NCBI RefSeq assembly: GCF_026341515.1
Contig: NZ_JAPEOK010000001.1
Coordinates: 1,674,001 to 1,738,000, forward strand
Direction of reading: 5' to 3'
Source of the DNA: Streptomyces sp. NBC_00878
GTDB lineage: Bacteria > Actinomycetota > Actinomycetes > Streptomycetales > Streptomycetaceae
Length of the DNA: 64,000 nucleotides
A program made the translations under genes and the position numbers. A model generated the notes under the pieces. That model searched no databases. It saw nothing but the letters and a program-made list of their open reading frames with translations, and was not told the DNA's origin. This document shows positions 19,204 through 62,445 of the stretch, piece by piece; the stretch's first letter is position 1, and the number at the start of each line of letters is the position of its first letter.

Positions 19204-19214
19204 GTCCCGCTCCT

Positions 19215-20531: not shown

Positions 20532-22232
20532 ATGCCCGACGACAACAGCCAGAACCTCATCTCCGGTGGGCACCTGGTCGCCAAGGCACTCAAAGCGGAG
20601 GGCGTGGAGGTCATCTACACGCTCTGCGGCGGCCACATCATCGACATCTACGACGGCTGCGTCGACGAGGGCATCGAGGTCGTCGACGTACGCCACGAAC
20701 AGGTCGCCGCCCACGCCGCCGACGGTTACGCGCGCATCACCGGCAAGCCCGGTTGCGCCGTCGTCACCGCCGGTCCCGGGACGACCGACGCCGTGACGGG
20801 TGTCGCCAACGCCTTCCGCGCGGAGTCCCCGATGCTGCTGATCGGCGGCCAGGGGGCCCACACCCAGCACAAGATGGGGTCCCTGCAGGACCTGCCGCAC
20901 GTCGACATGATGACGCCGATCACCAAGTTCGCGGCGACCGTGCCGGACACCGCGCGGGCCGCCGACATGGTGTCGATGGCGTTCCGCGAGTGCTATCACG
21001 GGGCGCCCGGCCCGTCCTTCCTGGAGATCCCGCGCGATGTCCTCGACGCCAAGGTGCCGGTCGAGAAGGCCCGGGTCCCCGCCGCCGGCCAGTACCGGGC
21101 CTCGACCCGCTCGGCCGGTGACCCCGAGGCCGTCGAGAAGCTCGCCGATCTCCTCGTGCACGCCGAGAAGCCCGCGATCCTGCTGGGCAGCCAGGTGTGG
21201 ACGACCCGTGGCACCGAGTCCGCCATCGAGCTCGTACGCACCCTCAACATCCCGGCGTACATGAACGGCGCGGGGCGCGGCACGCTGCCGCCCGGGGACC
21301 CGCACCACTTCCAGCTCTCGCGCCGGTACGCCTTCTCGAACGCCGACGTCATCGTCATCGTCGGTACGCCCTTCGACTTCCGCATGGGCTACGGGAAGCG
21401 GCTGTCGCCAGACGCGACCGTCGTGCAGATCGACCTCGACTACCGGACCGTCGGCAAGAACAGGGACATCGACCTCGGGATCGTCGGCGACGCGGGACTC
21501 GTCCTGAAGTCGGTCACCGAGGCCGCTTCCGGGCACGCTTTTAATGGATACAGCAACGGGGGCGCGTCGAAGCGCAAGGAGTGGCTCGACGAGCTGCGCG
21601 CCGCGGAGCAGACCGCCATCGAGAAGCGGCTGCCGAACCTGAAGTCGGACGCCTCGCCGATCCACCCGTACCGCCTGGTCAGCGAGATCAACGACTTCCT
21701 CACCGAGGACTCCATCTACATCGGCGACGGCGGCGACATCGTCACCTTCTCCGGGCAGGTCGTGCAGCCCAAGTCGCCCGGGCACTGGATGGACCCGGGT
21801 CCGCTCGGCACGCTCGGCGTCGGCGTCCCGTTCGTGCTCGCGGCCAAGAAGGCGCGGCCCGACAAGGAGGTGGTGGCCCTCTTCGGTGACGGCGCCTTCT
21901 CCCTCACCGGCTGGGACTTCGAAACCCTCGTCCGCTACAACCTCCCCTTCGTCGGCATCGTCGGCAACAACTCCTCCATGAACCAGATCCGCTACGGCCA
22001 GGCAGCCAAGTACGGCCTGGAGCGCGAGCGGGTCGGCAACACCCTCGGCGACGTCCACTACGACAAGTTCGCCCAGATGCTGGGCGGCTACGGCGAGGAG
22101 GTCCGCGACCCCGCCGACATCGCCCCCGCCCTCCAGCGCGCCCGCGAGTCGGGCAAGCCGTCGCTGATCAACGTCTGGGTCGACCCGGACGCGTACGCCC
22201 CCGGAACCATGAACCAGACGATGTACAAGTGA
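20532..22232 (+). CDS. ThDP-dependent lyase/decarboxylase beside frc (oxalyl-CoA decarboxylase or 2-hydroxyacyl-CoA lyase role)
   Basis: 566 residues from ATG 20532 with GAAGGGAC ahead. It has the three-domain acetolactate-synthase fold: [16 protein letters not shown] with the activating Glu (about 57), the central FAD/ADP-like domain, and the ThDP motif [20 protein letters not shown] ending in GNN (about 452-480). Length equals that of oxalyl-CoA decarboxylase. Position one gene before frc also points to that role, splitting oxalyl-CoA to formyl-CoA and CO2. However, it lacks the GVVGIP and GDSAFGFSG phrases of classical Oxc and has [11 protein letters not shown] instead, so it is a distinct branch. 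2-Hydroxyacyl-CoA lyase is the main alternative. Confidence 0.75.
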
Positions 22233-22242
22233 GGTGGCCGCG

Positions 22243-23520
22243 ATGACCCCGATCACCCCGATGACCTCGATGACCTCGATCGCAGGAACGTCGACCAAGG
22301 CTCTCGACGGCATCCGTGTCCTCGACATGACGCACGTCCAGTCCGGTCCTTCCGCGACCCAGTTGCTCGCCTGGCTCGGCGCGGACGTGGTCAAGCTGGA
22401 GGCGCCGACCGGTGACATCACGCGCAAGCAACTGCGCGACCTGCCGGACGTCGACTCCCTCTACTTCACGATGCTCAACTGCAACAAGCGGAGCATCACC
22501 CTCAACACCAAGACCGAGCGCGGCAAGGAGATCCTCACCGAGCTGATCCGGCGCTCCGACGTCATGGTCGAGAACTTCGGACCGGGCGCGGTCGACCGCA
22601 TGGGCTTCACCTGGGACCGCATCCAGGAGATCAATCCGCGAATCGTCTATGCCTCCATCAAGGGGTTCGGGGACGGCCCGTACACCAACTTCAAGGCGTA
22701 CGAGGTCGTCGCTCAGGCCATGGGCGGGTCGATGTCGACCACCGGCTTCGAGGACGGGCCGCCGCTGGCGACGGGAGCCCAGATCGGTGACTCGGGCACG
22801 GGCATCCACGCGGTGGCGGCGATCCTCGCCGCCCTGTTCCAGCGGGAGAACACGGGGCGCGGGCAGCGCGTAAACGTGGCGATGCAGCACGCCGTGCTGA
22901 ATCTGTGCCGGGTGAAACTGCGGGACCAGCAGCGCCTCGGGCATGGGCCGCTGGCTGAATATCCCAACGACGACTTCGGCGACGAAGTTCCCAGGTCCGG
23001 CAACGCGTCCGGCGGCGGCCAGCCCGGCTGGGCAGTGAAGTGCGCGCCGGGCGGCCCGAACGACTACGTGTACGTCATCGTGCAGCCCGTCGGCTGGAAG
23101 CCCCTCACCGAACTCATCGGGCGCCCCGAGCTCGCGGACGCCCCCGAGTGGGCGACCCCTGAGGCCCGTCTCCCCCAACTCACCAAGATGTTCCAGCTCA
23201 TCGAGGAGTGGTCGGCCACGCTGCCCAAGTGGCAGGTCCTTGAGCAGCTCAACGCCCACAACATCCCCTGCGGTCCGATCCTCTCCACCAAGGAGATCAT
23301 CGAGGACGAGTCGCTGGTCGCCAACGAGATGGTCGTGACGGTGCCGCATCCCGAGCGGGGCGACTTCGTGACCGTGGGCAGCCCGCTGAAGCTCTCCGAC
23401 TCCCCCGTGGACGTGACCAGTTCGCCGCTGCTGGGCGAGCACAACGAAGAGGTGTACGTCGGCGAGCTCGGTCTCGGCGACGAGGAGCTGCGCCTGCTCA
23501 AGTCGAACGGAGTGATCTGA
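22243..23520 (+). CDS. frc: Formyl-CoA:oxalate CoA-transferase
   Basis: 425 residues from ATG 22243, with GAGGTGG overlapping the stop of the preceding gene; GTG 22234 and later ATGs are alternatives. A class III CoA-transferase closely matching E. coli YfdW/Frc: IGDSGTG with the catalytic Asp at about 183, [16 protein letters not shown], the flexible glycine loop GGGQPGW, and FGDEVPR-like FGDEVPRSG. These are specific to Frc rather than to general CaiB-type enzymes. It transfers CoA from formyl-CoA to oxalate, feeding oxalyl-CoA to the decarboxylase and releasing formate. Cotranscribed with the ThDP gene and the CoA ligase that follows. Confidence 0.9.
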
Positions 23521-23523
23521 TTG

Positions 23524-25656
23524 ATGGCCGAAGACCGGATGCTGAGGGTGCGTACGCTCCTTGACGCCGTGCGGGCCGAGGGGCGGACCGCGCTCACCGC
23601 GCCCGAGGGCAAGGTGATCGCCGACGCGTACGCGATCGCCGTCCCCGGCGAGGAGCTGGCGACCGACGTCGACGAGGCGGTGTCGTACGCGGCGCGCTTC
23701 GGCGGGCCCGTCGTGATGAAGATCGTCTCCCCGGACATCCTCCACAAGACCGACGCCGGCGGCGTGATCGTCGGCGTGGAGGGCGCGACGGACGTACGCG
23801 CCGCCTTCCACAGGGTCATCGAGAACGCCCGGGCGTACGACTCCCAGGCCCGAATCGAGGGCGTACAGGTCCAGGAACTGCTCCCCAAGGGGCAGGAGGT
23901 CATCGTCGGCGCGGTGACCGATCCGACCTTCGGGAAGGTCGTGGCCTTCGGGCTCGGCGGTGTGCTCGTCGAGGTCCTCAAGGACGTCACGTTCCGGCTG
24001 GCGCCCGTCGACGCGGACGAGGCGCTGTCGATGCTGGACTCGATCCGCGCCGCGGAGATCCTGCGCGGGGTGCGGGGCGCGCCGGCGGTGGACCGGTGGG
24101 CGATCGCCGAGCAGATCCGCCGGGTCTCCGAACTGGTCGCGGACTTCCCGGAGATCGCCGAGGTCGACTTGAACCCGGTGATCGCCACCCCGGAGGGCGC
24201 GGTGGCGGCGGACATCCGGGTCATCCTCGCCGAGGAGGTGGCCAAGCCGCGACGGAAGTACACGCGCGACGAGATCCTCACCACCATGCGCCGGTTGATG
24301 CAGCCGTCGTCAGTGGCCGTGATCGGCGCCTCCAACGAGCAGGGCAAGATAGGCAATTCGATCATGCGCAACCTCATCGACGGCGGCTTCTCCGGGGAGA
24401 TCCACCCGGTGAACCCCAAGGCCGATGACATTCTGGGCCGCAAGGCGTACAAGAGTGTCACGGACGTTCCCGGTGAGGTGGATGTGGCGGTCTTCGCTAT
24501 TCCCGCCAAGTTCGTGGCCTCGGCCCTGGAGGAAGTGGGACGCAAGGGGATCCCCAACGCTGTCCTGATCCCCTCGGGGTTCGCGGAGACCGGTGAGCAC
24601 GAGCTGCAGGACGAGATCGTGGCCATCGGCGAGCGCTACGGAGTCCGGCTGCTCGGGCCGAACATCTACGGCTACTACTCGACGTGGCAGGACCTGTGCG
24701 CCACGTTCTGCACGCCGTACGACGTCAAGGGCGGCGTCGCGCTCACCTCGCAGTCCGGTGGCATAGGGATGGCCATTCTGGGCTTCGCGCGCACTACGAA
24801 GACGGGTGTTTCCGCGATCGTGGGGCTCGGCAACAAGTCGGACCTGGACGAGGACGACCTGCTGACCTGGTTCGGCGAGGACCCCAACACCAAGTGCATC
24901 GCCATGCACTTGGAGGACCTCAAGGACGGACGCGCCTTCGTGGAGGCCGCGCGGGCGACCGTCCCCAAGAAGCCGGTGGTCGTCCTGAAGGCGGGCCGTA
25001 CGGCGGCCGGGGCCAGGGCCGCGGGCTCGCACACGGGCGCCCTCGCGGGCGACGACGCCGTGTACGAGGACATCCTGAAGCAGGCCGGTGTCATCAGGGC
25101 GCCGGGTCTGAACGAAATGCTGGAGTACGCGCGCGCGTTGCCGGTGCTGCCGACTCCTCGGGGCGACAACATCGTGATCATCACGGGCGCCGGCGGCAGT
25201 GGCGTGTTGCTGTCCGACGCGGTGACCGACAACGGCCTCTCCCTGATGGAGATCCCGCCGGACCTGGACGCGTCCTTCCGGAAGTTCATCCCGCCCTTCG
25301 GTGCGGCCGGCAACCCGGTGGACATCACGGGCGGCGAACCGCCGTCGACGTACGAGGCGACGATCCGGCTCGGTCTGGAGGACCCGCGGATCCACTCGCT
25401 CGTCCTCGGCTACTGGCACACCATCGTGACCCCTCCCATGGTCTTCGCCGAGCTCACCGCGCGCGTGGTGGCCGAATTCAGGGAGCGCGGGATCGAGAAG
25501 CCCGTCGTGGCGTCGCTCGCGGGCGACGTCGAGGTCGAGGAGGCCTGCCAGTACCTCTACGAGCACGGGGTCGTGGCGTACCCGTACACGACCGAGAAGC
25601 CGGTGGCCGTGCTGGGTGCGAAGTATCGCTGGGCGCGGGCGGCGGGGCGGCTGTGA
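23524..25656 (+). CDS. Acetate-CoA ligase family protein, ADP-forming acyl-CoA synthetase (fused subunits)
   Basis: 710 residues from ATG 23524, three bases after the frc stop; TTG 23521 is a weaker choice. The order is an N-terminal ATP-grasp domain (about 15-235; GPVVMKIVSPDILHKTDAGG), a CoA-binding domain (about 260-355; SVAVIGASNEQGKIGNSIM), then the ligase/phospho-His domain (LTSQSGGIGMAILGFA; GSHTGALAGDDAVYE with the His). Both halves of an archaeal-type ACD are fused in beta-alpha order. No acetyltransferase domain is present, so it is not a Pat-type protein. It probably makes or breaks an acyl-CoA (formyl-, oxalyl- or acetyl-CoA) with ATP. Confidence 0.85.
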   Translation: MAEDRMLRVRTLLDAVRAEGRTALTAPEGKVIADAYAIAVPGEELATDVDEAVSYAARFGGPVVMKIVSPDILHKTDAGGVIVGVEGATDVRAAFHRVIENARAYDSQARIEGVQVQELLPKGQEVIVGAVTDPTFGKVVAFGLGGVLVEVLKDVTFRLAPVDADEALSMLDSIRAAEILRGVRGAPAVDRWAIAEQIRRVSELVADFPEIAEVDLNPVIATPEGAVAADIRVILAEEVAKPRRKYTRDEILTTMRRLMQPSSVAVIGASNEQGKIGNSIMRNLIDGGFSGEIHPVNPKADDILGRKAYKSVTDVPGEVDVAVFAIPAKFVASALEEVGRKGIPNAVLIPSGFAETGEHELQDEIVAIGERYGVRLLGPNIYGYYSTWQDLCATFCTPYDVKGGVALTSQSGGIGMAILGFARTTKTGVSAIVGLGNKSDLDEDDLLTWFGEDPNTKCIAMHLEDLKDGRAFVEAARATVPKKPVVVLKAGRTAAGARAAGSHTGALAGDDAVYEDILKQAGVIRAPGLNEMLEYARALPVLPTPRGDNIVIITGAGGSGVLLSDAVTDNGLSLMEIPPDLDASFRKFIPPFGAAGNPVDITGGEPPSTYEATIRLGLEDPRIHSLVLGYWHTIVTPPMVFAELTARVVAEFRERGIEKPVVASLAGDVEVEEACQYLYEHGVVAYPYTTEKPVAVLGAKYRWARAAGRL

Positions 25657-25915
25657 TGCCACCGGCGCGCGGCGGGCCGGCCGGGGGTCCGGGGGTTGTC
25701 CCCCGGGCGGGCCGCAGCTCGCTGGGCGCGCGCGGCGGGGCGGTTGTGACGCTGCGGCGCGTGGCGGGCGCTGTTGGGGGGGCGGTTCATGACTTGACCC
25801 GGTGAAGGGGCGGGCCGACGGTGCGCGTCGGCCCGCCCCGGGACCCGTGCGCACACGAAAGGAATTGGACAGGGGGCGCTGGCCAGATCTTTCGACGCGA
25901 GGGGTGCTACGCGAC

Positions 25916-27304
25916 ATGACAACCACCGACTTCACGACACCCGTCCCCTACAGGGAGGTGACGGACCGCAACGGCCGCCTGTACCGGATCGGCGAGACCG
26001 ACCGGGACATCATGGGGCGACCACGCTGGACCATGGTGCTCTTCCCCTGGATGGGCATGATGGGCATCAGTTCCTCGGAGTACGCGTTCACATCCGCCGA
26101 GGACACCCTGCACGAGGCCCACCTCTGGGACAGTGGGCACATCTTCTGGCTGATGGGCGTCTGGGTGTTCTTCCAGGCCGCCGTGGCCTTCCCGGCCGGC
26201 CAGTTGCGCGAGAGCGGAAAGCTGCCCGCGCGGTACGCCATGATGCTCGGCGCGCTCGGCACGGTCCTGGGCTACATCTCATTGGCGTACGCGCCGCATG
26301 TGATCGTCGCCTACATAGGCTTCGGCATGTTCAGCGGTATCGGCGCCGGCCTCGTCTACGCGACCTGCGTGAACATGGTCGGCAAGTGGTACCCGGAGCG
26401 CAAGGGCGGCAAGACCGGCATGGTCAACGGCGGTTTCGCCTACGGATCCGTGCCCTTCGTGTTCCTGTTCACCTCATACATGGACCTGTCCAACTACGAG
26501 ACCGTGCTGGTCTTCGTCGGCGCGATCTGCTGCACGGTCGTCGCCGTCGCCGGCTGGTTCTTCAAGGACCCGCCGAAGAACTGGTGGCCCGCGCACGTCG
26601 ACCCGCTGAAGACCTCCGACGACCCGCGGGTCGTGCGGGCGCTGGCCAAGAACCCGCCGGCGGTCAAGCAGTACACACCGCGGGAGGCGGCCAGGACGCC
26701 CGTGCTGTGGATGATGTGGTTCTGCCTGTTGTGCACGGCCGGCATCAACATCTTCGGCATCGCCATGCAGGTGCCGTTCGGCAAGGAGATGGGCTTCGCG
26801 GGCGGGATCGTGGCCACCGCCATGTCACTCAAGGCCATAGTCAACGGCACCGGACGCGGTGTCATCGGCTGGATCTCGGACCGCTACGGCCGCCGGAACA
26901 CACTCGTCATCGTCTGTGTCGTCCTCGGCTGCTCTCAGTTCGGCGTGTTCCTCTCCGGGAACATGGGCTCGATGCCGTTCTTCCTGGTCTGCTCGATGAT
27001 CTCCGGCTTTGGCGGCGGCGCGATCTTCCCACTGTTCGCGGCGATGACGGCGGACTACTTCGGTGAGAACAACAACGCCTCCAACTACGGCATGGTCTAC
27101 AGCTCCAAGCTCATCTCGGGTCTCGTCGGTTCCGGTGTAGGGGCCGTCGTCGTGAGCGCCTGGGGCTACGGAGGCGCCTTCGCGCTGGCCGGCGGCATCG
27201 GCCTCGGTTCCGCGGTCCTGGCGCTCTTCCTGCGCGCTCCTGGGCGGCCCACGGCCAAGCGCATCGTGCCCAACCCGCACCCGATCGGCGAGGAGATGGC
27301 CTGA
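25916..27304 (+). CDS. OFA family MFS transporter (oxalate/formate antiporter type)
   Basis: 462 residues from ATG 25916 (MTTTDFTTPVPY). Twelve membrane segments, with WTMVLFPWMGMMGISSSEYA in the first, the MFS loop GKWYPERKGGKTGMVNGGFA and GWISDRYGRRNTL between segments 8 and 9. These match the OFA family. With frc and the ThDP gene just upstream, exchange of external oxalate for internal formate is the natural reading. The 260-base gap before it holds GC-rich low-complexity sequence and no gene; it may carry a separate promoter. A terminator follows at 27447. Confidence 0.88.
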   Translation: MTTTDFTTPVPYREVTDRNGRLYRIGETDRDIMGRPRWTMVLFPWMGMMGISSSEYAFTSAEDTLHEAHLWDSGHIFWLMGVWVFFQAAVAFPAGQLRESGKLPARYAMMLGALGTVLGYISLAYAPHVIVAYIGFGMFSGIGAGLVYATCVNMVGKWYPERKGGKTGMVNGGFAYGSVPFVFLFTSYMDLSNYETVLVFVGAICCTVVAVAGWFFKDPPKNWWPAHVDPLKTSDDPRVVRALAKNPPAVKQYTPREAARTPVLWMMWFCLLCTAGINIFGIAMQVPFGKEMGFAGGIVATAMSLKAIVNGTGRGVIGWISDRYGRRNTLVIVCVVLGCSQFGVFLSGNMGSMPFFLVCSMISGFGGGAIFPLFAAMTADYFGENNNASNYGMVYSSKLISGLVGSGVGAVVVSAWGYGGAFALAGGIGLGSAVLALFLRAPGRPTAKRIVPNPHPIGEEMA

Positions 27305-52136: not shown

Positions 52137-52283
52137 CTATCCCGTGAACAACTGTGTGGCCTTCTGTACGAGCTCGTACAGACCATAGACCAACGGCGCC
52201 CCCACCCAGAGCCAGGCGAAGGCGATCAGCCCACGGCGGTCGGACGTACTGCCGTCAGGCGGACTGCTGTCGCTCGTGGACAT
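52137..52283 (-). CDS. 48-residue membrane protein, small subunit of the OFA/MFS transporter
   Basis: A short gene overlapping the end of the transporter gene by 29 bases. ATG 52283 gives MSTSDSSPPDG, then RRGLIAFAWLWVGAPLVYGL and YELVQKATQLFTG before TAG at 52137-52139. One membrane helix (about 19-36) is followed by an amphipathic tail. Small proteins of this form follow OFA transporters in many actinobacteria and are listed as MFS transporter small subunits. The overlap indicates translational coupling and a one-to-one partner. Its effect on transport is not known. Confidence 0.82.
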   Translation of the reverse strand: MSTSDSSPPDGSTSDRRGLIAFAWLWVGAPLVYGLYELVQKATQLFTG

Positions 52284-53586
52284 CGGCGGCCTCCTTCTGG
52301 GCTGGCAAGTGGTGACGGACGTTGACGGGACGGACCAGCTCGTTGGCGACGAAGCCGATCACGAGCAGCCCGATCATGATGATCAGTGACACTCCGTAGA
52401 GGGACGCTCCGGATTTGCCGACCTCCTCCTGCCGGTCCGCGATCCAGTTGACGATCAGTGGTCCGAGGACTCCGGCGGTCGACCAGGCGGTGAGCAGCCG
52501 CCCGTGGATCGCGCCGACCTGGTAGGTCCCGAAGAGGTCCTTCAGATAGGCGGGGATGGTCGCGAAGCCGCCCCCGTAGAAGGAGAGGATCACCAGGGCG
52601 CAGCAGATGAACAGCGGCTTCGAGGAGTCCCCGACCCAGGCGATGAGGGCGTACATCAGCGCGCCGACACCCAGGTAGACGCGGTAGATGTTCTTGCGTC
52701 CGATCAGGTCGGACGTCGACGACCAGCCGATACGGCCCGCCATGTTCGCCGCGGACAGGAGGGCGACGAATCCGGCCGCCGCCGACACCGAGACGGGTGT
52801 GGAGGTGTCCGAGAAGAAGTCCGTGATCATCGGGGCGGCCTTCTCCAGGATGCCGATGCCCGCGGTCACGTTCATACAGAGCACCACCCACAGGCACCAG
52901 AACTGCGGCGTGCGAATGGCGCTGTTCGCGGAGACCTGTACGCCTTCGAGCGGCGCCGGACCGCCGTCGGCCGCGGTCTTCGTGGCGCGCGGTACACGGA
53001 CCAGGAACACGCCGAGGGACATGAAGACGGCGTACGTCAGCCCGTGCACGAGGAAGGCCTGCGCGATGCCGGTGTTGTCGGAGCCGAAGGACTCCAGCAT
53101 CTGCGCGGACCACGGCGAGGCGATGAGCGCGCCGCCGCCGAACCCCATGATGGCGATGCCGGTGGCCATGCCGGGCCGGTCCGGGAACCACTTGATGAGC
53201 GTGGAGACGGGCGAGATGTATCCGATGCCGAGGCCGATGCCGCCGACGAAGCCGTAGCCGAAGACGATCAGCCAGTACTGCTCGGTGACGGCGCCGAGCG
53301 CGGAGAGCAGGAAGCCCGACGAGAAGCAGATCAGGGCGACCGTCATCGCCCAGCGCGGCCCGTTGCGTTCGACGAGTGTGCCGCCGAACGCGGCGGACAG
53401 GCCGAGCATCACGATGCCGAGCTGGAAGGGCAGGGCGCTCTGGGTGCCGCTGAGGTCCAGCGCGGACTCCAGGGACGGCTTGAACACGGACCAGGCGTAG
53501 GCCTGTCCGATGGAGAGGTGGACCGACAGGGCCGCGGGCGGGACCAGCCAGCGGCTCCAGCCCGGTGGGGCTACAGGGGGACTCAT
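52255..53586 (-). CDS. OFA family MFS transporter (oxalate/formate antiporter type), second copy
   Basis: 443 residues from ATG 53586 (MSPPVAPPGWSRW); the longer open frame upstream is not convincing coding. Twelve membrane segments: HLSIGQAYAWSVFKPSLESA, the OFA loop STLIKWFPDRPGMATGIAIM, and GRIGWSSTSDLIGRKNIYRV. Differs clearly from the copy at 25916, so it is a paralogue and not a recent duplicate. A 48-residue partner gene overlaps its end. Divergent from the panE remnant and formate dehydrogenase operon; formate or oxalate are likely substrates. Confidence 0.88.
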   Translation of the reverse strand: MSPPVAPPGWSRWLVPPAALSVHLSIGQAYAWSVFKPSLESALDLSGTQSALPFQLGIVMLGLSAAFGGTLVERNGPRWAMTVALICFSSGFLLSALGAVTEQYWLIVFGYGFVGGIGLGIGYISPVSTLIKWFPDRPGMATGIAIMGFGGGALIASPWSAQMLESFGSDNTGIAQAFLVHGLTYAVFMSLGVFLVRVPRATKTAADGGPAPLEGVQVSANSAIRTPQFWCLWVVLCMNVTAGIGILEKAAPMITDFFSDTSTPVSVSAAAGFVALLSAANMAGRIGWSSTSDLIGRKNIYRVYLGVGALMYALIAWVGDSSKPLFICCALVILSFYGGGFATIPAYLKDLFGTYQVGAIHGRLLTAWSTAGVLGPLIVNWIADRQEEVGKSGASLYGVSLIIMIGLLVIGFVANELVRPVNVRHHLPAQKEAADVHERQQSA

Positions 53587-53948
53587 GATCCCGGACGATA
53601 GAAAGCGGTCGCACTGTTGGGAAGGCGGCCGCCCGAACGCGTATCCCGTATGCGGTGAGCGGTATGCCGGGCGCGACGAGCGGTCGGTTCGGGCCGACGA
53701 ACGGTCGTTCAGGCCCAACTCCATGGTTCTACCAAGGGTGTTCGGGACGCGACACACAGCGAATCCCGTGCCCGCGCAGGTCGATTCCCGGCCGCGGCCC
53801 CACGTGTCGCGGTGCCGCGCGAAAGCGTGTCGCAGGTGCTGCGCGAACTCTTGCTGCCCCAACTCCCATACTGTAGACAATATTCAGTCGACATGGTTCA
53901 ACGCTGTCAGCGTCTCCTCGGTACCCTCGACCGAACGGAGCCCCTCCC
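53587..53948. promoter_or_regulatory. Divergent promoter region between OFA transporter and panE/fdh
   Basis: 362 bases without a gene. The right end holds CATACTGTAGACAATATT (53867-53884), the most AT-rich stretch here and the candidate GntR site. The left part has GTATCCCGTATGCGG and GAGCGGTCGG/GAACGGTCG near-repeats. No further structure is evident. Confidence 0.5.
53867..53884. promoter_or_regulatory. Candidate GntR operator/promoter ahead of the panE-fdh genes
   Basis: CATACTGTAGACAATATT shares ACTGTAGAC with the site before the GntR gene and ACTGTA..CAAT with the dyad half-site at 20430. It lies 65 bases before the GTG at 53949 and 281 bases before the divergent transporter start. Confidence 0.5.
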
Positions 53949-54900
53949 GTGAAAGTGGCAGTTCTCGGCGCCGGTGCGATCGGCGCCTACGTCGGTGCCG
54001 CGCTCCATCGCGCGGGTGCCGATGTGCACCTCATCGCCCGTGGACCGCATCTGGCGGCCATGAGGCAGCACGGAGTGCGAGTGCTCAGCCCGCGCGGTGA
54101 CTTCACCGCACGGGCCCACGCCACCGACGACCCGGCCGAGGTCGGCCCGGTCGACTTCGTCTTCCTGGGCAACGACGCCTGGCTCAAACTGCTCGGCAAC
54201 ATCTCCTTCAACCGTTCTTGGGCAGTGAGCGGGAGCGAGCCCGCGCACTGGCACGCCCCGAACGGTCTTGGGCGCACTGGTCGTCCGCTTTCGCAACCGG
54301 GCGGCGACACGGATCCTGGTCCGGCCCCGGAAGGGCGGAGTCCCTCACGACCTGGCCATGTGGATGCAGCCAGAGGCGACGGGGAGGCCCCGAACCATCA
54401 CTCCGGTGGAGCAGGGGCCCCGCACGCTGGCACCACACCCGGCGTCCCAGATCGCGCTGCCCACGCTACCCCGGCCCGCACCAGACCTCGCAAGCCCGAA
54501 AGCCGACCATCACACGATCGAGCTAAACCGGCCCAACGTGCGCTCCACGGTGACCAGTTGCCACCCCATCAGCGCCCTGGCCCGCGCGACCATGCGGCAG
54601 ATGTGCCTGCACGGCGGTACGCGCCGGGTCATCGAGATCATGATGGCCGAGACGCTCGCGGTCGCCGAGGCGCTGGGCTGTGAGGTGGGCGTCTCCATCG
54701 AACGGCGGCTGGCCGGCGCGGAGCGCGTCGGCGACCACCGCACCTCGACGCCCCAGGACCTGGAGCGCGGCAAGCCGCTCGAACTCGACGTCCTGCTCGC
54801 CGCCGTCGTCGAACTCGCGGAGATCACCGACGTCCCGGTGCCCACGCTCCGCACCGTCCACGCCATCTCGGACCTCCTCGCCCTGAGGACAGCCGCATGA
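53949..54900 (+). pseudogene. Disrupted ketopantoate reductase (PanE/ApbA family)
   Basis: GTG 53949 opens a normal PanE start: VKVAVLGAGAIGAYVGAALH (NADP loop), HLIARGPHLAAMRQHGVRVL, and FVFLG. The text then jumps to NDAWLKLLGNISFN, which belongs after the middle of the protein, so roughly 130 residues are deleted. Immediately after that Asn (54212) comes 352 bases of unrelated sequence. The gene resumes in another frame at 54565 with PISALARATMRQMCLHGGTR, LGCEVGVSIERRLAGAERVG and DVPVPTLRTVHAISDLLALR. Deletion plus insertion plus frameshift make it non-functional. The family reduces 2-keto acids with NADPH. Confidence 0.8.
54213..54564. other. 352-base insert splitting the panE remnant
   Basis: Foreign sequence placed exactly between the codons for Asn and Pro of the conserved NISFN-PISAL motif. 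Its left end has GTTCTTGGGC, with a near copy GGTCTTGGGC about 55 bases on. I see no terminal inverted repeats or target duplication. A plus frame (RFRNRAATRILVRPRKGGVP, HPASQIALPTLPRPAPDLAS) has coding character, but I do not recognise it. Confidence 0.55.
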
Positions 54901-54958: not shown

Positions 54959-56884
54959 ATGAGGAAGCGCGACCGAACTCCCAAGATCTACAACCGACTT
55001 GAGTACCCACTGGTCCGTGACTCCCGCGACGAACCCTTCCGGAGGGCGAGTTGGGACGAGGCCCTGGACCGTGCCGCCCGCGGCCTGGGCGCGGCACGCG
55101 ACGCGTTCGGCATGTTCTCCTGCGCCCGCGCGACCAACGAGATGAACTACGTGGCGCAGAAGTTCGCCCGCGTGGTCATGGGCACCAACAACGTCGACTC
55201 CTGCAACCGGACCTGCCACGCGCCCAGCGTGGCGGGCCTGTCGGCCGCCTTCGGCTCGGGCGGCGGGACCTCCTCGTACACGGAGGTCGAGCACACCGAC
55301 CTCATCGTGATGTGGGGTTCCAACGCCCGTTTCGCGCACCCGATCTTCTTCCAGCACGTCCTGAAGGGGATCAGGAACGGCGCCCGGATGTACGCGGTCG
55401 ACCCGCGCCGCACGTCCACGGCCGAGTGGGCGGAGAGCTGGCTCGGGCTGAACGTCGGCACGGACATCCCGATGGCGCACGCGATCGGCCGCGAGATCAT
55501 CCGGGCGGGGCTGGCCAACGACGCGTTCATCGAGCGGGCGACCACCGGCTTCGAGGAGTACCGGCGGCTCGTCGAGCCCTGGACGCTGTCCCTCGCCGAG
55601 AAGGTGACGGGCGTACCGGCCGCCGCGATACGGGAGTTGGCGCACGCCTACGCCCGCGCCGAGCGCGCCCAGCTGTGCTGGACGCTCGGCATCACCGAGC
55701 ACCACAACGGCACGGACAACGTCCGCGCGCTCATCAATCTGTCGCTCCTGACGGGCCATGTGGGGCGGTTCGGCTCGGGGTTGCAGCCCCTGCGCGGGCA
55801 GAACAACGTGCAGGGCGGCGGCGACATGGGCGCCATCCCGAACCGGCTGCCCGGCTTCCAGGACATCCTCGACCCGGACACCCGGCTGAAGTTCGAGTCC
55901 GCCTGGGACACCGTCATCCAGCCCCACTACGGGATGAACCTGACCGAGATGTTCGAGGCCATGGAGGAGGGCACGCTCAAGGCCGTCTACTGCATCGGCG
56001 AGAACCCGGCGCAGTCGGAGGCCGACAGCGAGCAGGCGGTACGGCGCATGCGGGCCCTCGACTTCCTCGTCGTCCAGGACATCTTCCTGACGAAGACGGC
56101 CGAGCTCGCGGACGTCGTCCTGCCCGCGACGGCCGGCTGGGCCGAGACCGAGGGCACGACGACCAACAGCGAGCGGCGGGTTCAGCGGGTGCGGCGTGCG
56201 GTCGTCCCGCCCGGTGAGGCCCGCGAGGACATTGACATCCTCTGCGACCTCGCCTCCCGACTGGGCCACGAGTGGAAGTACGCGGATTCCGAGGCCGTCT
56301 GGAACGAGCTGCGGTCGGTGTCCCCGGACCACTTCGGGATGACGTACGAGCGGCTGGAGGAGCACCAGGGCATCCAGTGGCCGTGCCCGGAGACGGACCG
56401 GCTCGAACCGACCTATCTGCACGGGCGGTTGTGGGCCGCCGACCGGGCCGAGCGCGGCCGGCTCGCGCCCTTCGGGCTGGTCCAGCACGACCCGCCGGTC
56501 GACCTGACGGACGAGGAGTACCCGATCCGGCTGACCACCGGGCGGCGGCTCGACTCGTACAACACCGGGGTGCAGAGCGGCGGTTTCGCCTCGCCGCTGC
56601 GGCGCGGGGAGTACGTCGAGCTGTGCCCGGAGGACGCGGAGCGCTACGGCGTGGTGGTCGGTGAGGAGGTCCAGGTCTCCTCGCGGCGCGGGGCGGTGGT
56701 GGCGCCGGTGTGGATCGACCCGGCGCTGCGGCCCGGGCTCGCGTTCATGACCATGCACTTTCCCGACGAGGTGGACACCAACCAGCTGACGATCGAGGCC
56801 AATTGCCCGATCGCGGGGACGGCGGAGTTCAAGGCGTCGGCGATCCGGATCGACAAGCTGCCGGTAGCGATTCAAGTGAGGTGA
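54959..56884 (+). CDS. Formate dehydrogenase catalytic (molybdopterin) subunit, lacking its N-terminal Fe-S part
   Basis: 641 residues from ATG 54959. It begins directly with PLVRDSRDEPFRRASWDEAL, whereas FdsA/FdhF-type enzymes have a [4Fe-4S] domain before this. Molybdenum ligand Cys 86 and His 87 lie in NNVDSCNRTCHAPSVAGL. Other core motifs are IVMWGSNARFAHPIFFQHVL, LLTGHVGRFGSGLQPLRGQN and the C-terminal molydopterin-binding LTTGRRLDSYNTGVQSGGFA. The missing Fe4S4 domain is found at the C-terminus of the gene at 58719, so the alpha subunit is split in two. Oxidises formate to CO2. Confidence 0.9.
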   Translation: MRKRDRTPKIYNRLEYPLVRDSRDEPFRRASWDEALDRAARGLGAARDAFGMFSCARATNEMNYVAQKFARVVMGTNNVDSCNRTCHAPSVAGLSAAFGSGGGTSSYTEVEHTDLIVMWGSNARFAHPIFFQHVLKGIRNGARMYAVDPRRTSTAEWAESWLGLNVGTDIPMAHAIGREIIRAGLANDAFIERATTGFEEYRRLVEPWTLSLAEKVTGVPAAAIRELAHAYARAERAQLCWTLGITEHHNGTDNVRALINLSLLTGHVGRFGSGLQPLRGQNNVQGGGDMGAIPNRLPGFQDILDPDTRLKFESAWDTVIQPHYGMNLTEMFEAMEEGTLKAVYCIGENPAQSEADSEQAVRRMRALDFLVVQDIFLTKTAELADVVLPATAGWAETEGTTTNSERRVQRVRRAVVPPGEAREDIDILCDLASRLGHEWKYADSEAVWNELRSVSPDHFGMTYERLEEHQGIQWPCPETDRLEPTYLHGRLWAADRAERGRLAPFGLVQHDPPVDLTDEEYPIRLTTGRRLDSYNTGVQSGGFASPLRRGEYVELCPEDAERYGVVVGEEVQVSSRRGAVVAPVWIDPALRPGLAFMTMHFPDEVDTNQLTIEANCPIAGTAEFKASAIRIDKLPVAIQVR

Positions 56885-56889
56885 CGTAA

Positions 56890-58722
56890 GTGGACCTGCG
56901 CTTCGGTGACAGCAAGCCGACGGACGAGGAGCGGGCGGCGGTCGACGCGCTGCTCGGTCCTCCGGAGTCTTCGTGGGAGGGCGCCGACCGTTCCGACGCC
57001 GACCTGAGGTGGGCACGCGGCGGGCGGGCGGCCCGGGAACGCCGTGACCTGCTGTTGCCGGGGCTGCACGCCGTCAACGACCGGATCGGCTGGATCAGCG
57101 AGGGCGCCCTCGACTACCTCTGCCGACGGCTGACCGTGCCGCCGGCGGAGGCGTACGGGGTCGCCACCTTCTACGCGATGTTCTCGGTGAAGCCGCGGCC
57201 CGCGACGGTCCTGCACGTGTGCACGGACCTCGCGTGCGCGGCGGCCGGGGCATCGGAGCTGTGCGCGGGCGTCGAGGCCCGGCTCGGCCGCGGCAGCGGT
57301 GTCGGCGTCGAGCGCAGCCCCTGCCTGGGCCTGTGCGAGCGGGCTCCGGCCGCGCTGGCGATCAGGGCCGGGGATCCGGTGCGTACGGCCGTGTCGGCGC
57401 CCGCGACGGTCGAGCGGGCCGTGCTCGCGGCGAGCGCGCCCGACTCGGCGCCCGAGGAGCCTCCGGCGGCCCTGGCGGTACCGCAGACGGCCCAGGCGGG
57501 CCGTGAGGAGCTCGTGCTGCTGAGCCGCGTCGGTGTGGTCGACCCGGCCTCGCTGGACGACTACCGGGCGCGCGGCGGCTACACGGCCCTGCGGCAGGCC
57601 TTCGCGATCGGCCCCGCCGGGGTCATCCGCGAGGTGACCGACGCGGGCCTGGTCGGGCGTGGCGGCGCCGCCTTCCCCACCGGCCGCAAATGGCAGGCCA
57701 CGGCGTCGGGGCCCGACCATCCGCACTACCTCGTCTGCAACGCCGACGAGTCCGAGCCGGGCACCTTCAAGGACCGCGTGGTCATGGAGGGCGACCCGTA
57801 CTCGCTCGTGGAGGCGATGACGATCGCGGGGTACGCGGTCGGGGCGCACAAGGGCTACCTGTATCTGCGCGGCGAGTACCCGCGGGCGCTGGAACGCATG
57901 GAGCACGCCATCGGGCAGGCACGCGCGCGCGGGCTGCTCGGCGACGACGTCCTCGGCCAGGGGTACGCCTTCGACATCGAGATCCGGCGCGGCGCGGGCG
58001 CGTACATCTGCGGCGAGGAGACCGCCCTCTTCAACTCGATAGAGGGGTACAGAGGAGAGCCGCGGTCGAAACCGCCCTTCCCCGTAGAGAAGGGTTTGTT
58101 CGGCAAACCCACTGCCGAGAACAACGTCGAGACGCTGGTCAACGTGCTGCCCATCCTCACGATGGGGGCGCAGGCGTACGCCGCGATCGGCACCGGCAAG
58201 TCCACCGGACCGAAGCTGTTCTGCGTGTCGGGCAGCGTGGACCGGCCCGGCATCTACGAGCTGCCGTTCGGCGCGACGCTCGGCGAACTGCTGGACCTCG
58301 CGGGCGTACGTAAACGTTTGCGCGCGGTGCTGCTCGGCGGCGCGGCCGGTGGTTTCGTACGGCCCGACGAGCTGGACATCCCGCTCACCTTCGAGGGCAC
58401 GCGGGAGGCGGGCACGACGCTCGGTTCCGGGGTCGTGCTGGCCTTCGACGACGCCGTTCCGCTGCCGCGTCTGCTGCTGCGGATCGCCGAGTTCTTCCGC
58501 GACGAGTCCTGCGGACAGTGCGTGCCGTGCCGGGTCGGGACCGTGCGCCAGGAGGAGGCGCTGCACCGCATCGTCGAGCGGACGGGCGCGGACGCGGCGT
58601 CCGACATCGCCCTGCTGCGCGAGGTGGGCCGTGCCATGAAGGACGCCTCGATCTGCGGTCTCGGGCAGACCGCGTGGAACGCCGTGGAATCCGCCATCGA
58701 CCGTCTGGGGGCGTACGAATGA
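56890..58722 (+). CDS. NADH-oxidoreductase subunit of formate dehydrogenase, fused NuoE+NuoF type
   Basis: 610 residues from GTG 56890, preceded by GAGGTGACG. Residues about 1-175 are a NuoE/FdsG-like thioredoxin-fold [2Fe-2S] protein (AYGVATFYAMFSVKPRPATV, CTDLAC, SPCLGLC). Residues about 200-610 are NuoF/FdsB: GRGGAAFPTGRKWQA (NADH/FMN glycine loop), CNADESEPGTFKDRVVMEGD, GAYICGEETALFNSIEGYRG and the [4Fe-4S] ligands SCGQCVPCRVG with a distal CGLGQ. The two polypeptides of FdsGB are one chain here. It passes electrons from formate to NAD. Coupled to the next gene by ATGA. Confidence 0.9.
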   Translation: MDLRFGDSKPTDEERAAVDALLGPPESSWEGADRSDADLRWARGGRAARERRDLLLPGLHAVNDRIGWISEGALDYLCRRLTVPPAEAYGVATFYAMFSVKPRPATVLHVCTDLACAAAGASELCAGVEARLGRGSGVGVERSPCLGLCERAPAALAIRAGDPVRTAVSAPATVERAVLAASAPDSAPEEPPAALAVPQTAQAGREELVLLSRVGVVDPASLDDYRARGGYTALRQAFAIGPAGVIREVTDAGLVGRGGAAFPTGRKWQATASGPDHPHYLVCNADESEPGTFKDRVVMEGDPYSLVEAMTIAGYAVGAHKGYLYLRGEYPRALERMEHAIGQARARGLLGDDVLGQGYAFDIEIRRGAGAYICGEETALFNSIEGYRGEPRSKPPFPVEKGLFGKPTAENNVETLVNVLPILTMGAQAYAAIGTGKSTGPKLFCVSGSVDRPGIYELPFGATLGELLDLAGVRKRLRAVLLGGAAGGFVRPDELDIPLTFEGTREAGTTLGSGVVLAFDDAVPLPRLLLRIAEFFRDESCGQCVPCRVGTVRQEEALHRIVERTGADAASDIALLREVGRAMKDASICGLGQTAWNAVESAIDRLGAYE

Positions 58723-59579
58723 CCTTGATACCGCTGGGGATCCCCCGCCGTCTGCTGGAGTTCACGATCGACGGTGAGCCCGTGCGGGCCCCGGAGGGGT
58801 CGACGATCCTCGACGCCTGCCGATCGGTGGGCAAGGACGTCCCGACCCTCTGCCAGGGCGACACGCTCGCCCCCAAGAACGCCTGCCGCGTCTGCGTCGT
58901 CGAGGTCGAGGGCTCGCGCACCCTCGCCCCGGCGTGCTCCCGCAAGGCCGAGGCGGGCATGCGGGTGCGGACGGACACCGAGCGCGCCCGGCACAGCCGC
59001 AAGATCGTCCTCGAACTCCTCGCGTCCTCGGTCGACCTGTCGACCACACCGGAGGTCGCCGGGTGGCTCAAGGAGTACGAGGCGAAGCCCGACCGCTTCG
59101 GCCCGGACGCGGCCCGTCTCGACGAGGAGCCGAAGGTCGACAACGACCTGTACGTGCGCGACTACGACAAGTGCATCCTCTGCTACAAGTGCGTGGACGC
59201 CTGCGGCGACCAGTGGCAGAACACCTTCGCGATCTCGGTCACCGGGCGCGGCTTCGACGCCCGGATCGCCGTCGAGCACGACGCGCCGCTCACCGATTCG
59301 GCATGCGTGTACTGCGGCAACTGCATCGAGGTGTGCCCGACGGGCGCGCTGTCGTTCAAGTCGGAGTTCGACATGCGGGCGGCGGGTACGTGGGACGAGC
59401 CGGCGCAGACCGCGACGACCACGGTGTGCGCGTACTGCGGAGTGGGCTGCAATCTCACCCTGCACGTGCAGGACAATGAGATCGTGAAGGTCACCTCGCC
59501 GCACGACAACCCGGTGACCCAGGGCAACCTCTGCATCAAGGGCCGCTTCGGCTACCAGCACGTACAGAACCGGGACTGA
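58719..59579 (+). CDS. Fe-S N-terminal half of formate dehydrogenase alpha subunit
   Basis: 286 residues from ATG 58719 (ATGA overlap). Domain order: [2Fe-2S] ferredoxin (FTIDGEPVRAPEGSTILDAC, LCQGDTLAPKNACRVCVVEV, ACSRK); the His/Cys [4Fe-4S] helix region (ARHSRKIVLELL); two [4Fe-4S] motifs (CILCYKCVDACG and CVYCGNCIEVCPTGAL); and finally the Fe4S4 motif CAYCGVGCNLTLHVQD with GNLCIKGRFGYQHVQNRD. In FdsA these precede the molybdopterin domain on the same chain. The chain here stops exactly where the gene at 54959 would continue. The two halves should assemble into one catalytic subunit. Confidence 0.9.
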   Translation: MTLIPLGIPRRLLEFTIDGEPVRAPEGSTILDACRSVGKDVPTLCQGDTLAPKNACRVCVVEVEGSRTLAPACSRKAEAGMRVRTDTERARHSRKIVLELLASSVDLSTTPEVAGWLKEYEAKPDRFGPDAARLDEEPKVDNDLYVRDYDKCILCYKCVDACGDQWQNTFAISVTGRGFDARIAVEHDAPLTDSACVYCGNCIEVCPTGALSFKSEFDMRAAGTWDEPAQTATTTVCAYCGVGCNLTLHVQDNEIVKVTSPHDNPVTQGNLCIKGRFGYQHVQNRD

Positions 59580-59586
59580 TCAGGAC

Positions 59587-60450
59587 ATGGGACGAGTCAC
59601 GGAACGACGCAAGGTGATCCGCATCCGGGACGGGGCGGTCTCCACCCGCCCGGACACGCTCGTCGCCGAGGAGCCACTGGAGATCCGCCTCAACGGCAAA
59701 CCCCTCGCGATCACGATGCGCACCCCGGGCGACGACTTCGCGCTCGCGGCGGGCTTCCTGGTCAGCGAGGGGGTGCTGGGCGCGGCCGACGAGCTGCAGA
59801 ACATCGTCTACTGCGCGGGTGCGACGGTGGACGGTTCGAACACGTACAACATCGTCGACGTGCGGACCGCGCCCGGCGTCGTCATCCCCGACATCACGCT
59901 CGAACGCAACGTGTACACGACCTCGTCCTGCGGCCTGTGCGGCAAGGCGAGCCTGGACGCGGTCCGTACGACCGCCCGCTGGTCGATCGACGACACGGCG
60001 GGCGACACGGCTCCCCCGGTGCGGCTCGAACCCGAACTGCTCGCGAGCCTCCCCGACCGGCTGCGCGCGGCGCAGCGCGTGTTCGACCGGACCGGGGGTC
60101 TGCACGCGGCGGCGCTGTTCACGGAGGACGGCGAACTCGTCGACATCCGGGAGGACGTGGGCCGGCACAACGCGGTCGACAAGCTGGTCGGGCGCGCCCT
60201 CCAGAACGGCTCGCTGCCGCTCTCCCGCACGGTCCTGCTGGTCTCGGGCCGGGCCTCCTTCGAGCTGGCGCAGAAGGCCGTGATGGCGGGCATCCCGGTC
60301 CTCGCGGCGGTCTCGGCGCCGTCCTCGCTGGCGGTGGACCTGGCCGCCGAGTCGAACCTGACACTGGTCGGCTTCCTGCGGGGCACCTCCATGAACGTGT
60401 ACGCGGGCGAGCACCGCATCGCCCTGCGGGCCGCGGCCGCCCAGGGCTGA
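59587..60450 (+). CDS. fdhD: Formate dehydrogenase accessory sulfurtransferase FdhD
   Basis: 287 residues from ATG 59587, seven bases after the preceding stop. Cys 115 and Cys 118 in TSSCGLCGKASLD are the sulfur-carrying pair. RTPGDDFALAAGFLVSEGVL, GLHAAALFTEDGELVDIRED and VGRHNAVDKLVG are conserved. Transfers sulfur from a cysteine desulfurase to the molybdenum cofactor, which the formate dehydrogenase needs for activity. Its place at the end of the operon supports the formate dehydrogenase assignment. Confidence 0.95.
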   Translation: MGRVTERRKVIRIRDGAVSTRPDTLVAEEPLEIRLNGKPLAITMRTPGDDFALAAGFLVSEGVLGAADELQNIVYCAGATVDGSNTYNIVDVRTAPGVVIPDITLERNVYTTSSCGLCGKASLDAVRTTARWSIDDTAGDTAPPVRLEPELLASLPDRLRAAQRVFDRTGGLHAAALFTEDGELVDIREDVGRHNAVDKLVGRALQNGSLPLSRTVLLVSGRASFELAQKAVMAGIPVLAAVSAPSSLAVDLAAESNLTLVGFLRGTSMNVYAGEHRIALRAAAAQG

Positions 60451-61405: not shown

Positions 61406-61678
61406 TTGGATGCCGGTACCACCCTGCTCGGCTCGTTACTTGCCTGCGCGGGCGCGCTGGGCGCGGCTGTCGTGGCGTACTTGGGGAAGCGGGGCGAGAA
61501 CGCCCTGAACGGCTACTCCAGCCTGACCGAGAAGCTCCAGTCCGAGCGCGACCGCCTTGAGCGCCAGATCGCCGAACGCGACACGCGCATCGACGAGTTG
61601 TCGACGATGCACACCGCCGACCAGTCGGAGATCGCCCGTCTGCGACTCGACATCCACCGACTGGGAGGAGCGCCATGA
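61406..61678 (+). CDS. Small membrane protein with C-terminal coiled coil
   Basis: 90 residues from TTG 61406, chosen for the GGAGGC ribosome site seven bases upstream. One membrane helix (about 5-27; [20 protein letters not shown]) is followed by [20 protein letters not shown] and a heptad coiled coil ([32 protein letters not shown]). Holin-like or scaffolding in appearance. Its stop overlaps the start of the collagen-like gene (ATGA), so the two are a coupled pair. Similar neighbours occur in actinophage tail/lysis modules, but no other phage gene is here. Confidence 0.72.
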
Positions 61679-62445
61679 ACCGGTTCCAGCGGCTGCTTGC
61701 CCTGCGCTGGCGCAGCATCTTCCTCGTCTGTGTGCTGATCGCGCTCAGCGGCATCGCGGTCATCCTGTGGGCGCGGATCGACGCCGGCGACCGCCGGGCC
61801 GACGAGCTGCGCGCCGAGGCCGACCGGCGCGGCGAGGCCGTGTCGACGCTGGTCCAGGACGTACGCGATCTGCGCGCCCAGGTCGAGGCCGGCGGCGGCA
61901 CCCCGGCGGCACCCGATCCGTCCGACGCCGTGGACGACCTGCTCGACCGGGTGCGGGTGCCCGCCGCGGCCCCCGGTGAACCGGGCGCCAAGGGCGACCG
62001 GGGCGCGACCGGTGCGGGCGGGGCACCCGGGCCCGGCGGCGGCCGCGGACCACGCGGCGAGACCGGGCCGCCCGGACCGTCGGGCTCCCCGGGTCCGCCC
62101 GGACCCTCGGGAGAGCCGGGAGAGCCCGGCGCGCCCGGCGAACCGGGTCCCGCGGGCGCCGACGGACTGAACGGAGCCCACGGCGCGGACGGAGCGGGTG
62201 GTCCCGCCGGGCCGCCCGGTTCCGACGGCTCACAGGGCTACCAGGGCCCGAAGGGCGATCCCGGCGCCAAGGGCGAGAAGGGCGACCCCGGCCCCTCCTG
62301 CCCGGACGGCTACACCCTCCAGGTACCCGCCGGCGACCCGGACGCCCTGGTCTGCCGCAGAACCGGCGGCGCGGCCCCCGCTCCCGAGCCCGCGGGGCTC
62401 CTCCCGGTGCCGCCGCCACTGCTCCGACGGAGGGAACTCGCCTAG
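61675..62445 (+). CDS. Membrane-anchored collagen-like protein
   Basis: 256 residues. Membrane helix about 12-33 ([20 protein letters not shown]), a coiled-coil stalk about 40-70 ([20 protein letters not shown]), a linker, then 36 uninterrupted Gly-X-Y triplets (about 101-208) such as [21 protein letters not shown] short C-terminal region with two Cys ([19 protein letters not shown]) and a Pro-rich tail end the protein. The triplets should form a rigid extracellular triple helix trimerised by the stalk. Coupled to the small coiled-coil membrane protein before it. Role (surface fibre, adhesion or phage-derived) unknown. Confidence 0.88.

Follow-up and report, generated by a model that had tools for sequence, protein, structure and literature searches.

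Can the catalytic alpha subunit of a formate dehydrogenase (FDH) be divided between its pterin cofactor and the iron-sulfur (Fe-S) cluster next to it? The question is raised by a four-gene operon of Streptomyces sp. NBC_00878, which lies in a stretch of 64,000 nucleotides (nt) on contig NZ_JAPEOK010000001.1 (positions 1,674,001 to 1,738,000; hereafter the window). An earlier reading of this DNA—the original prediction—had claimed that the alpha subunit is split into two genes in inverted order, with a molybdopterin half (Mo half) coming first, followed by a NuoE-NuoF fusion (NuoEF), an Fe-S half and, lastly, fdhD. We conclude that the operon very probably encodes a cytoplasmic, NAD+-dependent FDH with molybdenum (or tungsten) held by bis-molybdopterin guanine dinucleotide (bis-MGD), built from three chains, in which an alpha subunit of the FdsA type is made as two chains that share one origin and are inherited as a unit.

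An alpha subunit encoded by two genes

All four open reading frames (ORFs) are open and complete at the coordinates in Table 1, point in the same direction and follow one another with hardly a gap, the start of the Fe-S half overlapping the end of NuoEF by 4 nt. Pfam assigned only Molybdopterin and Molydop_binding to the first gene and FdhD to the fourth. The second carries 2Fe-2S_thioredx, Complex1_51K, SLBB and NADH_4Fe-4S, and both Pfam and alignment identify it as the NuoE and NuoF diaphorase of FdsABG(D)-type FDHs, present as a fusion. The third carries Fer2_4, Fer4 domains and, at its C-terminal end, Molybdop_Fe4S4, a domain that normally opens the Mo chain. ORFs and Pfam thus bear out the predicted gene order and, together with an alignment to FdsA, the division of the alpha subunit. 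“Inverted order” is a correct description; relative to fused operons, in which NuoEF is followed by one Fe-S and Mo chain, the arrangement is a cyclic permutation.

The position of the cut could be read from two alignments. On the NCBIfam model TIGR01591 (FDH alpha, 672 positions), the Fe-S half covers positions 1-52 and the Mo half 52-672, each covering a part that is absent from the other. Against the FdsA protein of Rhodobacter capsulatus (PDB 6tg9_A, 958 amino acids (aa)), the two products align end to end, the Fe-S half with residues 25-307 and the Mo half with 307-931; as predicted, the Fe-S product ends where the Mo product would continue, with a single shared residue (307) at the joint. 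At the level of sequence, this agrees with the continuous FdsA-like fold that the original prediction expected of the two halves. The locus accordingly lacks an alpha subunit that unites N-terminal Fe-S and Mo domains in one chain: it has two ORFs with NuoEF between them. None of the 36 split loci with a readable N-terminus has a CxxCxxxC (Fe4S4) motif upstream of the Mo half in its open frame, which means that no wrongly placed start conceals the absent domain, and in none of the 116 loci read does the Fe-S half continue into a Mo domain. Given the identical break in the relatives examined, the split is confirmed and stands above chance. What is striking is the cut site, which separates the pterin from the first cluster that belongs to it.

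The full set of on-path clusters and FDH catalytic residues is present, spread over separate chains. Cys86, His87 and Arg279 of the Mo half align with Sec140, His141 and Arg333 of Escherichia coli FdhF; across 72 Mo halves, Cys86 and His87 do not vary and Arg279 is conserved at 90% or more. In the Fe-S half, C45, C56, C59 and C73 are the ligands of the [2Fe-2S] cluster, and C237, C240, C244 and C272 are those of the Fe4S4 domain; these four and K274 align with Cys258, 261, 265 and 293 and Lys295 of FdsA. Across 122 Fe-S halves, including that of the window, the ligand cysteines of the three [4Fe-4S] clusters, C56, C59, C73 and K274 are invariant, and C45 is conserved at 90% or more. Going by their common C-x-K-G motif, we take FdsA Lys295—here Lys274—to be the counterpart of Lys44 of E. 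coli FDH-H. For Lys44 itself, only an exchange to Arg is reported to have kept activity (7.1%), with Glu or Met losing more than 90% of the cluster (PMC12176258).

Distribution, gene order and descent

Among 80 loci from named Streptomyces, NuoEF, the Fe-S half and FdhD stand in this order in every case, and the Mo half comes first in 71; in the other nine, the available sequence starts no more than 1.5 kb ahead of the Fe-S half. The three-gene order that the original prediction proposed to look for in this genus therefore recurs widely, in 71/71 loci holding a Mo half, although in two of these (L044 and L094) that half is spread over two frames. All 80 Fe-S halves stop at the same joint, 70/80 loci keep the 4-nt overlap with NuoEF, and 70 were read as having Cys at the catalytic position. 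One might suspect an error of annotation or assembly here, or a gene broken by frameshift or rearrangement of a once-fused alpha in this strain, given that the ApbA/PanE-like reductase gene just upstream (53949-54900) is visibly broken. Against this stand the joint and gene order shared across Streptomyces, the same order in all complete loci of the wider samples described below, and the conservation of ligands and catalytic residues, which together leave such an artefact a vanishingly small chance.

Of the 295 genomes in the genus sample, no fewer than 111 have a match to the Fe-S half (identity 67% or above) and no fewer than 102 a match to the Mo half (66% or above). The class sample (E 1e-70) gave matches in 24 of 394 genomes, eight of the same genus and 16 of one other family; the phylum sample (E 1e-45) gave 115 of 396. 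The three samples overlap in some genomes. Forty-one of the phylum matches (counted by hand) reached at least 60% identity—five in the same genus and 36 in others, 20 of which were examined—and the rest lay at about 35-45%. In this lower range, 20/20 loci examined (17 from the phylum sample and three from the genus sample) proved to be fused alphas, with a single open frame running from the Fe-S part into the beginning of the Mo part. The two kinds have different gene orders: the Mo half precedes NuoEF and the Fe-S half in 31/31 complete split loci (36 examined, namely the window, 20 deeper loci and 15 from the class and genus samples), and NuoEF precedes the Fe-S and Mo parts in 22/22 complete fused loci (23 examined). 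Across Actinomycetota, distant relatives included, the split is old and common. All organisms named among the best 120 of about 8000 scored protein matches per search belong to this phylum, in which we presume Candidatus Poriferisocius also to fall. Matches in plasmid records (217) were all below 60% identity. Three genomes of the genus (G049, G103 and G267; loci L176-L178) encode a fused alpha at about 35-40% identity, either with the split enzyme or without it.

Trees of both halves recovered the split enzymes as a single group. Of the 61 rows of the Mo tree, the 31 split ones form one clade with a support of 100 in the Shimodaira-Hasegawa-like approximate likelihood-ratio test (SH-aLRT), and in the Fe-S tree, made of the 57 rows having an Fe-S part, the 31 split rows form one clade with a support of 99; no fused row falls inside either clade. 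Rows of the Mo tree were picked by hand, with named Streptomyces represented by L034, L052, L073 and L110 only; the deeper split loci L140, L153 and L155 were omitted for contig ends or Ns, L204 and L207-L211 from the class and genus samples were dropped because of gaps or for economy, and L161 and L166 of the 20 fused loci were left out as well. One clade per half, no Fe-S half running on into a Mo domain and no Fe4S4 motif upstream of the Mo half together fit one old event rather than repeated breakage. The Mo tree joins the split clade to the fused clade and to two short rows in an unresolved fork, which suits a fused parent and a short, FdhF-type parent alike. As a route to the permuted order, gene order alone suggests the idea of a tandem duplication followed by loss of the outer parts.

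The catalytic residue itself varies among split enzymes. In the deeper split loci, an in-frame TGA stands at the place of the catalytic Cys in 18/18 readable cases (20 fetched; context SCNRT*HA; L139, L141-L154 and L156-L158), which come from lineages outside the class of the window's genome. The window has Cys at this position and hence does not encode a selenoprotein FDH; of the 15 class and genus loci, the motif was readable in 12, and all of these have Cys. SelB scored over its cut-off in 17 of 18 TGA genomes versus one of 13 Cys genomes (G843). A further Cys genome, G784, fell 0.75 bit below the cut-off, and G316, the TGA genome with no SelB over the cut-off, has two adjoining SelB-like pieces in different frames. 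Fused relatives likewise come in both Cys and TGA kinds. No Rfam family matched any of the four TGA-bearing loci scanned. A hairpin was predicted just 3′ of the TGA in 17/17 loci folded (L153 omitted for its Ns); because the Cys-coding sequence of the window folds about equally stably, we do not take this as evidence of a selenocysteine insertion sequence. Cysteine and probable selenocysteine versions of one enzyme are of relevance to CO2/formate catalysis.

Joint inheritance, proposed electron path and alternatives

In the 295 congeneric genomes, both halves were matched in 101, neither in 183, the Mo half alone in one and the Fe-S half alone in ten; these counts were made by eye at the identities given above and are lower bounds, and a match is not necessarily an intact gene. 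The 11 one-half genomes comprise two contig ends (G139, Mo half alone; G001, Fe-S half alone) and nine eroded operons, all from genomes with the Fe-S half alone, in which the Mo gene is gone or in pieces and NuoEF is broken or gone. Six of the nine (G022, G124, G125, G157, G229 and G237) also have a truncated or interrupted Fe-S half. FdhD is whole in 9/9 eroded operons (L211, L213, L214, L215, L216, L217, L234, L235 and L237) and may serve another enzyme or have a second role. Of five both-half genomes checked, three (G120, G198 and G201) have both halves open. The pattern is best explained by an operon that is inherited as a unit and, in Streptomyces, at times lost as a unit.

We infer that the three chains would form one cytoplasmic complex with a continuous electron path to NAD+. 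Formate would be oxidised on the Mo half at Cys86, His87 and Arg279, and the electrons would cross a chain boundary at once, from bis-MGD to cluster A1, the [4Fe-4S] cluster that the Fe-S half carries in its C-terminal Fe4S4 domain, where Lys274 would take the place of E. coli FDH-H Lys44. From there they would pass through the two ferredoxin-type [4Fe-4S] clusters and the [2Fe-2S] cluster of the Fe-S half to the [4Fe-4S] cluster and flavin mononucleotide (FMN) of NuoEF, reducing NAD+, while FdhD would act on the Mo half. The split arrangement would have arisen once, by cyclic permutation of an operon with the order NuoEF-FeS-Mo, and been passed on as a unit across Actinomycetota.

The division might also be functional in itself, although we consider this unlikely. 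The Mo half would then receive bis-MGD, and be sulfurated by FdhD, while still an open subunit that lacks A1, and docking of the Fe4S4 domain would close the pocket and supply the lysine, so that assembly of the electron wire would double as a maturation lock. Such a lock could replace FdsD, and would turn A1 and its lysine into a detachable component of a molybdoenzyme. The genome of the window gave no match to FdsD (PF11390), in a search in which no control genome matched, and neither did 30/30 other split-type genomes, in a search that did match the fused-type Streptomyces G267 as a positive control, close to its fused alpha.

Several points weigh against reading the operon as an FdsA-type enzyme in two pieces. 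Neither half alone reaches the TIGR01591 equivalog cut-off of 666.25 bits (Mo half 616, Fe-S half 54.3), and the Fe-S half taken alone has its highest scores with models of [FeFe]-hydrogenases and HoxU. The absence of FdsD is not peculiar to the split type, because G049, which has the fused type too, has none. The trees came from quick searches with SH-aLRT as their only support, and a long-branch warning was raised at the split clade. Three of the nine eroded loci (G081, G140 and G262) have an open, full-length Fe-S half despite a Mo gene that is broken or gone. In the other two both-half genomes checked, only one half is whole: G197 has the Fe-S half in two frames and G174 the Mo half. The literature searched, in the portions covered, records no enzymatic activity for this Streptomyces FDH, and the tight binding of the two halves would be a prediction from sequence. 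The halves in two frames (L239 in G197, L245 in G174) may reflect errors of sequencing or the beginning of decay.

Two of these points, the hydrogenase-type scores of the Fe-S half and its outliving the Mo half in three eroded loci, would suit a Mo half that is catalytic alone, with the Fe-S half as a loose or exchangeable HoxU-like carrier that also serves another enzyme. A plasmid FDH operon of Natrinema sp. SYSU A 869 (L218; WP_222914344, WP_222914346 and WP_255681688) offers a parallel, as it encodes a NuoF-like protein and a separate 2Fe-2S/ferredoxin-type subunit adjacent to a normal alpha. The Natrinema enzyme, however, is cut between the ferredoxin part and the Fe4S4 domain, so that its carrier lacks the latter and its alpha keeps one; the window enzyme shows the reverse, being cut between Fe4S4 and Mo. 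With the Fe4S4 domain on the Fe-S half, the Mo half alone would be without its first electron acceptor. The joint damage to the Fe-S half in six of nine eroded loci also speaks against a carrier. The original prediction had allowed that a separate full-length alpha elsewhere might use the Fe-S half merely to carry electrons; a search of the genome (G000) for relatives of the Mo half found no FdsA-like alpha of this kind. It returned two NasC/FDH-like proteins below the FDH-alpha and nitrate-reductase cut-offs (L002, with an additional CysJ-like part, and L003), a YdeP-type protein (L004) and NuoG (L010), both over their cut-offs, and L006, with no model over cut-off. Because none of these relatives has the FdsA layout, that objection does not apply. 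We regard the carrier explanation as very improbable and retain the two-chain alpha.

An enzyme built as described might still act on another substrate or in another direction, such as nitrate reduction, CO2 reduction in vivo or the conversion of another small acid. The Mo domain family includes nitrate reductases, and R. capsulatus FDH (RcFDH) is reported to reduce CO2 with NADH (PMC7171172). Yet the best scores are to formate dehydrogenases, the Cys/Sec-His pair and Arg of FDHs are present, deeper relatives have the in-frame TGA at the catalytic place, FdhD is part of the operon and a formyl-CoA transferase is encoded in the window; a non-formate role thus appears very improbable, and oxidation of formate remains our preferred reading.

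The neighbourhood contains possible links to formate (Table 1). A relative of the divergent major facilitator superfamily (MFS) transporter, likewise divergent, stands beside the operon in 65 of the 80 Streptomyces loci. The oxalate-type cluster is a possible source of formate, and an oxalate pathway ending in formate dehydrogenase has been reported (PMC10192776). The thiamine pyrophosphate (TPP) enzyme of the cluster scored below all cut-offs, best to acetolactate synthase PRK05858 and 2-hydroxyacyl-CoA lyase and more weakly to oxalyl-CoA decarboxylase; as the genome holds ten oxalyl-CoA decarboxylase matches, none over cut-off, we treat oxalate as a lead. A sucC/sucD-type succinate-CoA ligase pair over cut-off (18319-20345) adjoins the cluster. 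The broken gene between the transporter and the Mo half is ketopantoate-reductase-like, with the ApbA N-terminal part and ApbA_C in different frames, and an ORF with long collagen-like G-x-y repeats (61675-62445) adjoins the FDH operon.

Table 1 The FDH operon and other annotated features of the window
Feature	Coordinates	Strand	Remarks
Mo half of FDH alpha	54959..56884	+	641 aa; molybdopterin and dinucleotide-binding (bis-MGD) domains, without Fe4S4 domain
NuoE-NuoF fusion, diaphorase subunit	56890..58722	+	610 aa; thioredoxin-like [2Fe-2S], FMN/NADH domain, [4Fe-4S] domain
Fe-S half of FDH alpha	58719..59579	+	286 aa; [2Fe-2S], two ferredoxin [4Fe-4S], C-terminal Fe4S4 domain
FdhD, sulfurtransferase for FDH activation	59587..60450	+	398 bits vs cut-off 269
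Divergent MFS transporter, L-lactate / oxalate-formate group	52255..53880	-	below NCBIfam cut-offs
Oxalate-type catabolic cluster	20532..27304	+	context, ~30 kb from the FDH operon, outside the enzyme
Formyl-CoA transferase	22234-23520	+	690 bits vs cut-off 504
Acyl-CoA ligase	23521-25656	+	oxalate-type cluster
OFA-type transporter (second)	25802-27304	+	below cut-offs

Comparison with known formate dehydrogenases

Short alpha subunits score best to the Mo half: FdhF of the hydrogen-dependent CO2 reductase (HDCR; 7qv7) at 495 bits, formate dehydrogenase 7bkb at 489 and E. coli FdhF (1aa6) at 460, versus 402 for FdsA (6tg9). Unlike the Mo half, E. coli FdhF has its Fe4S4 domain on the catalytic chain, as, we assume, do HDCR FdhF and 7bkb.

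In domain content, there is a close likeness to FdsABGD of R. capsulatus (6tg9/6tga), which has the same on-path cofactor domains, FDH catalytic residues and diaphorase, the two halves together corresponding to FdsA 25-931. Its electron chain is given as bis-MGD-A1-A2-A3-A5-B6-FMN (PMC7171172). FdsA is one chain; the window enzyme has two, a fused NuoE and NuoF and a permuted gene order, and FdsD, part of FdsABGD, was not found alongside it. RcFDH also has a His/Cys3 [4Fe-4S] cluster at its dimer interface (A4; His117, Cys121, Cys124 and Cys130; PMC7171172), for which the window enzyme has no aligned His/Cys counterpart in the FdsA alignment, and no Pfam domain for A4 was found. MeFDH1 of Methylorubrum extorquens (7vw6, 7e5z) is reported likewise to lack a cluster at this site and to hold the diaphorase FMN, [4Fe-4S] and [2Fe-2S] in one beta chain, like the NuoEF fusion (PMC10869683). 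Its alpha is one chain (989 aa in 7vw6), unlike that of the window.

A probable relative, going by subunit length, is FDH3 of Actinomycetospora chiangmaiensis (WP_084681743, WP_018332443 and WP_018332444), whose FdhA3 (640 aa), FdhB3 (614 aa) and FdhC3 (316 aa) were all found in the proteome in 2020 (PMC7176365) and match the Mo half, NuoEF and the Fe-S half by length only. Formate removal in this organism is reported to be selenium-dependent, and FDH3 is called cytoplasmic, NAD+-dependent and selenocysteine-carrying, where the window enzyme has Cys; the portions of that paper covered contain no remark on a split alpha (PMC7176365). No description of a split alpha of this kind was found in the open-licence PMC literature, within the text portions searched, and “Streptomyces”, “Actinobacter” and “Actinomyc” are absent from the first 300,000 of 334,378 characters of a 2026 review of metal-dependent FDHs (PMC13397495). 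The split would also explain vague database names such as “2Fe-2S iron-sulfur cluster-binding protein” and “molybdopterin oxidoreductase family protein”.

FdsA, MeFDH1 and E. coli FdhF all carry the pterin-adjacent Fe4S4 domain on the catalytic chain. A natural split at this point offers a two-part system in which the roles of A1 and its lysine in cofactor insertion, stability and electron transfer could be tested by the addition or omission of a whole subunit, not by point changes. The class to which the enzyme belongs, that of NAD+-dependent Mo/W FDHs, is known, and the operon does not represent a new kind of FDH; what is new is an alpha subunit split at the joint between the pterin and the first cluster.

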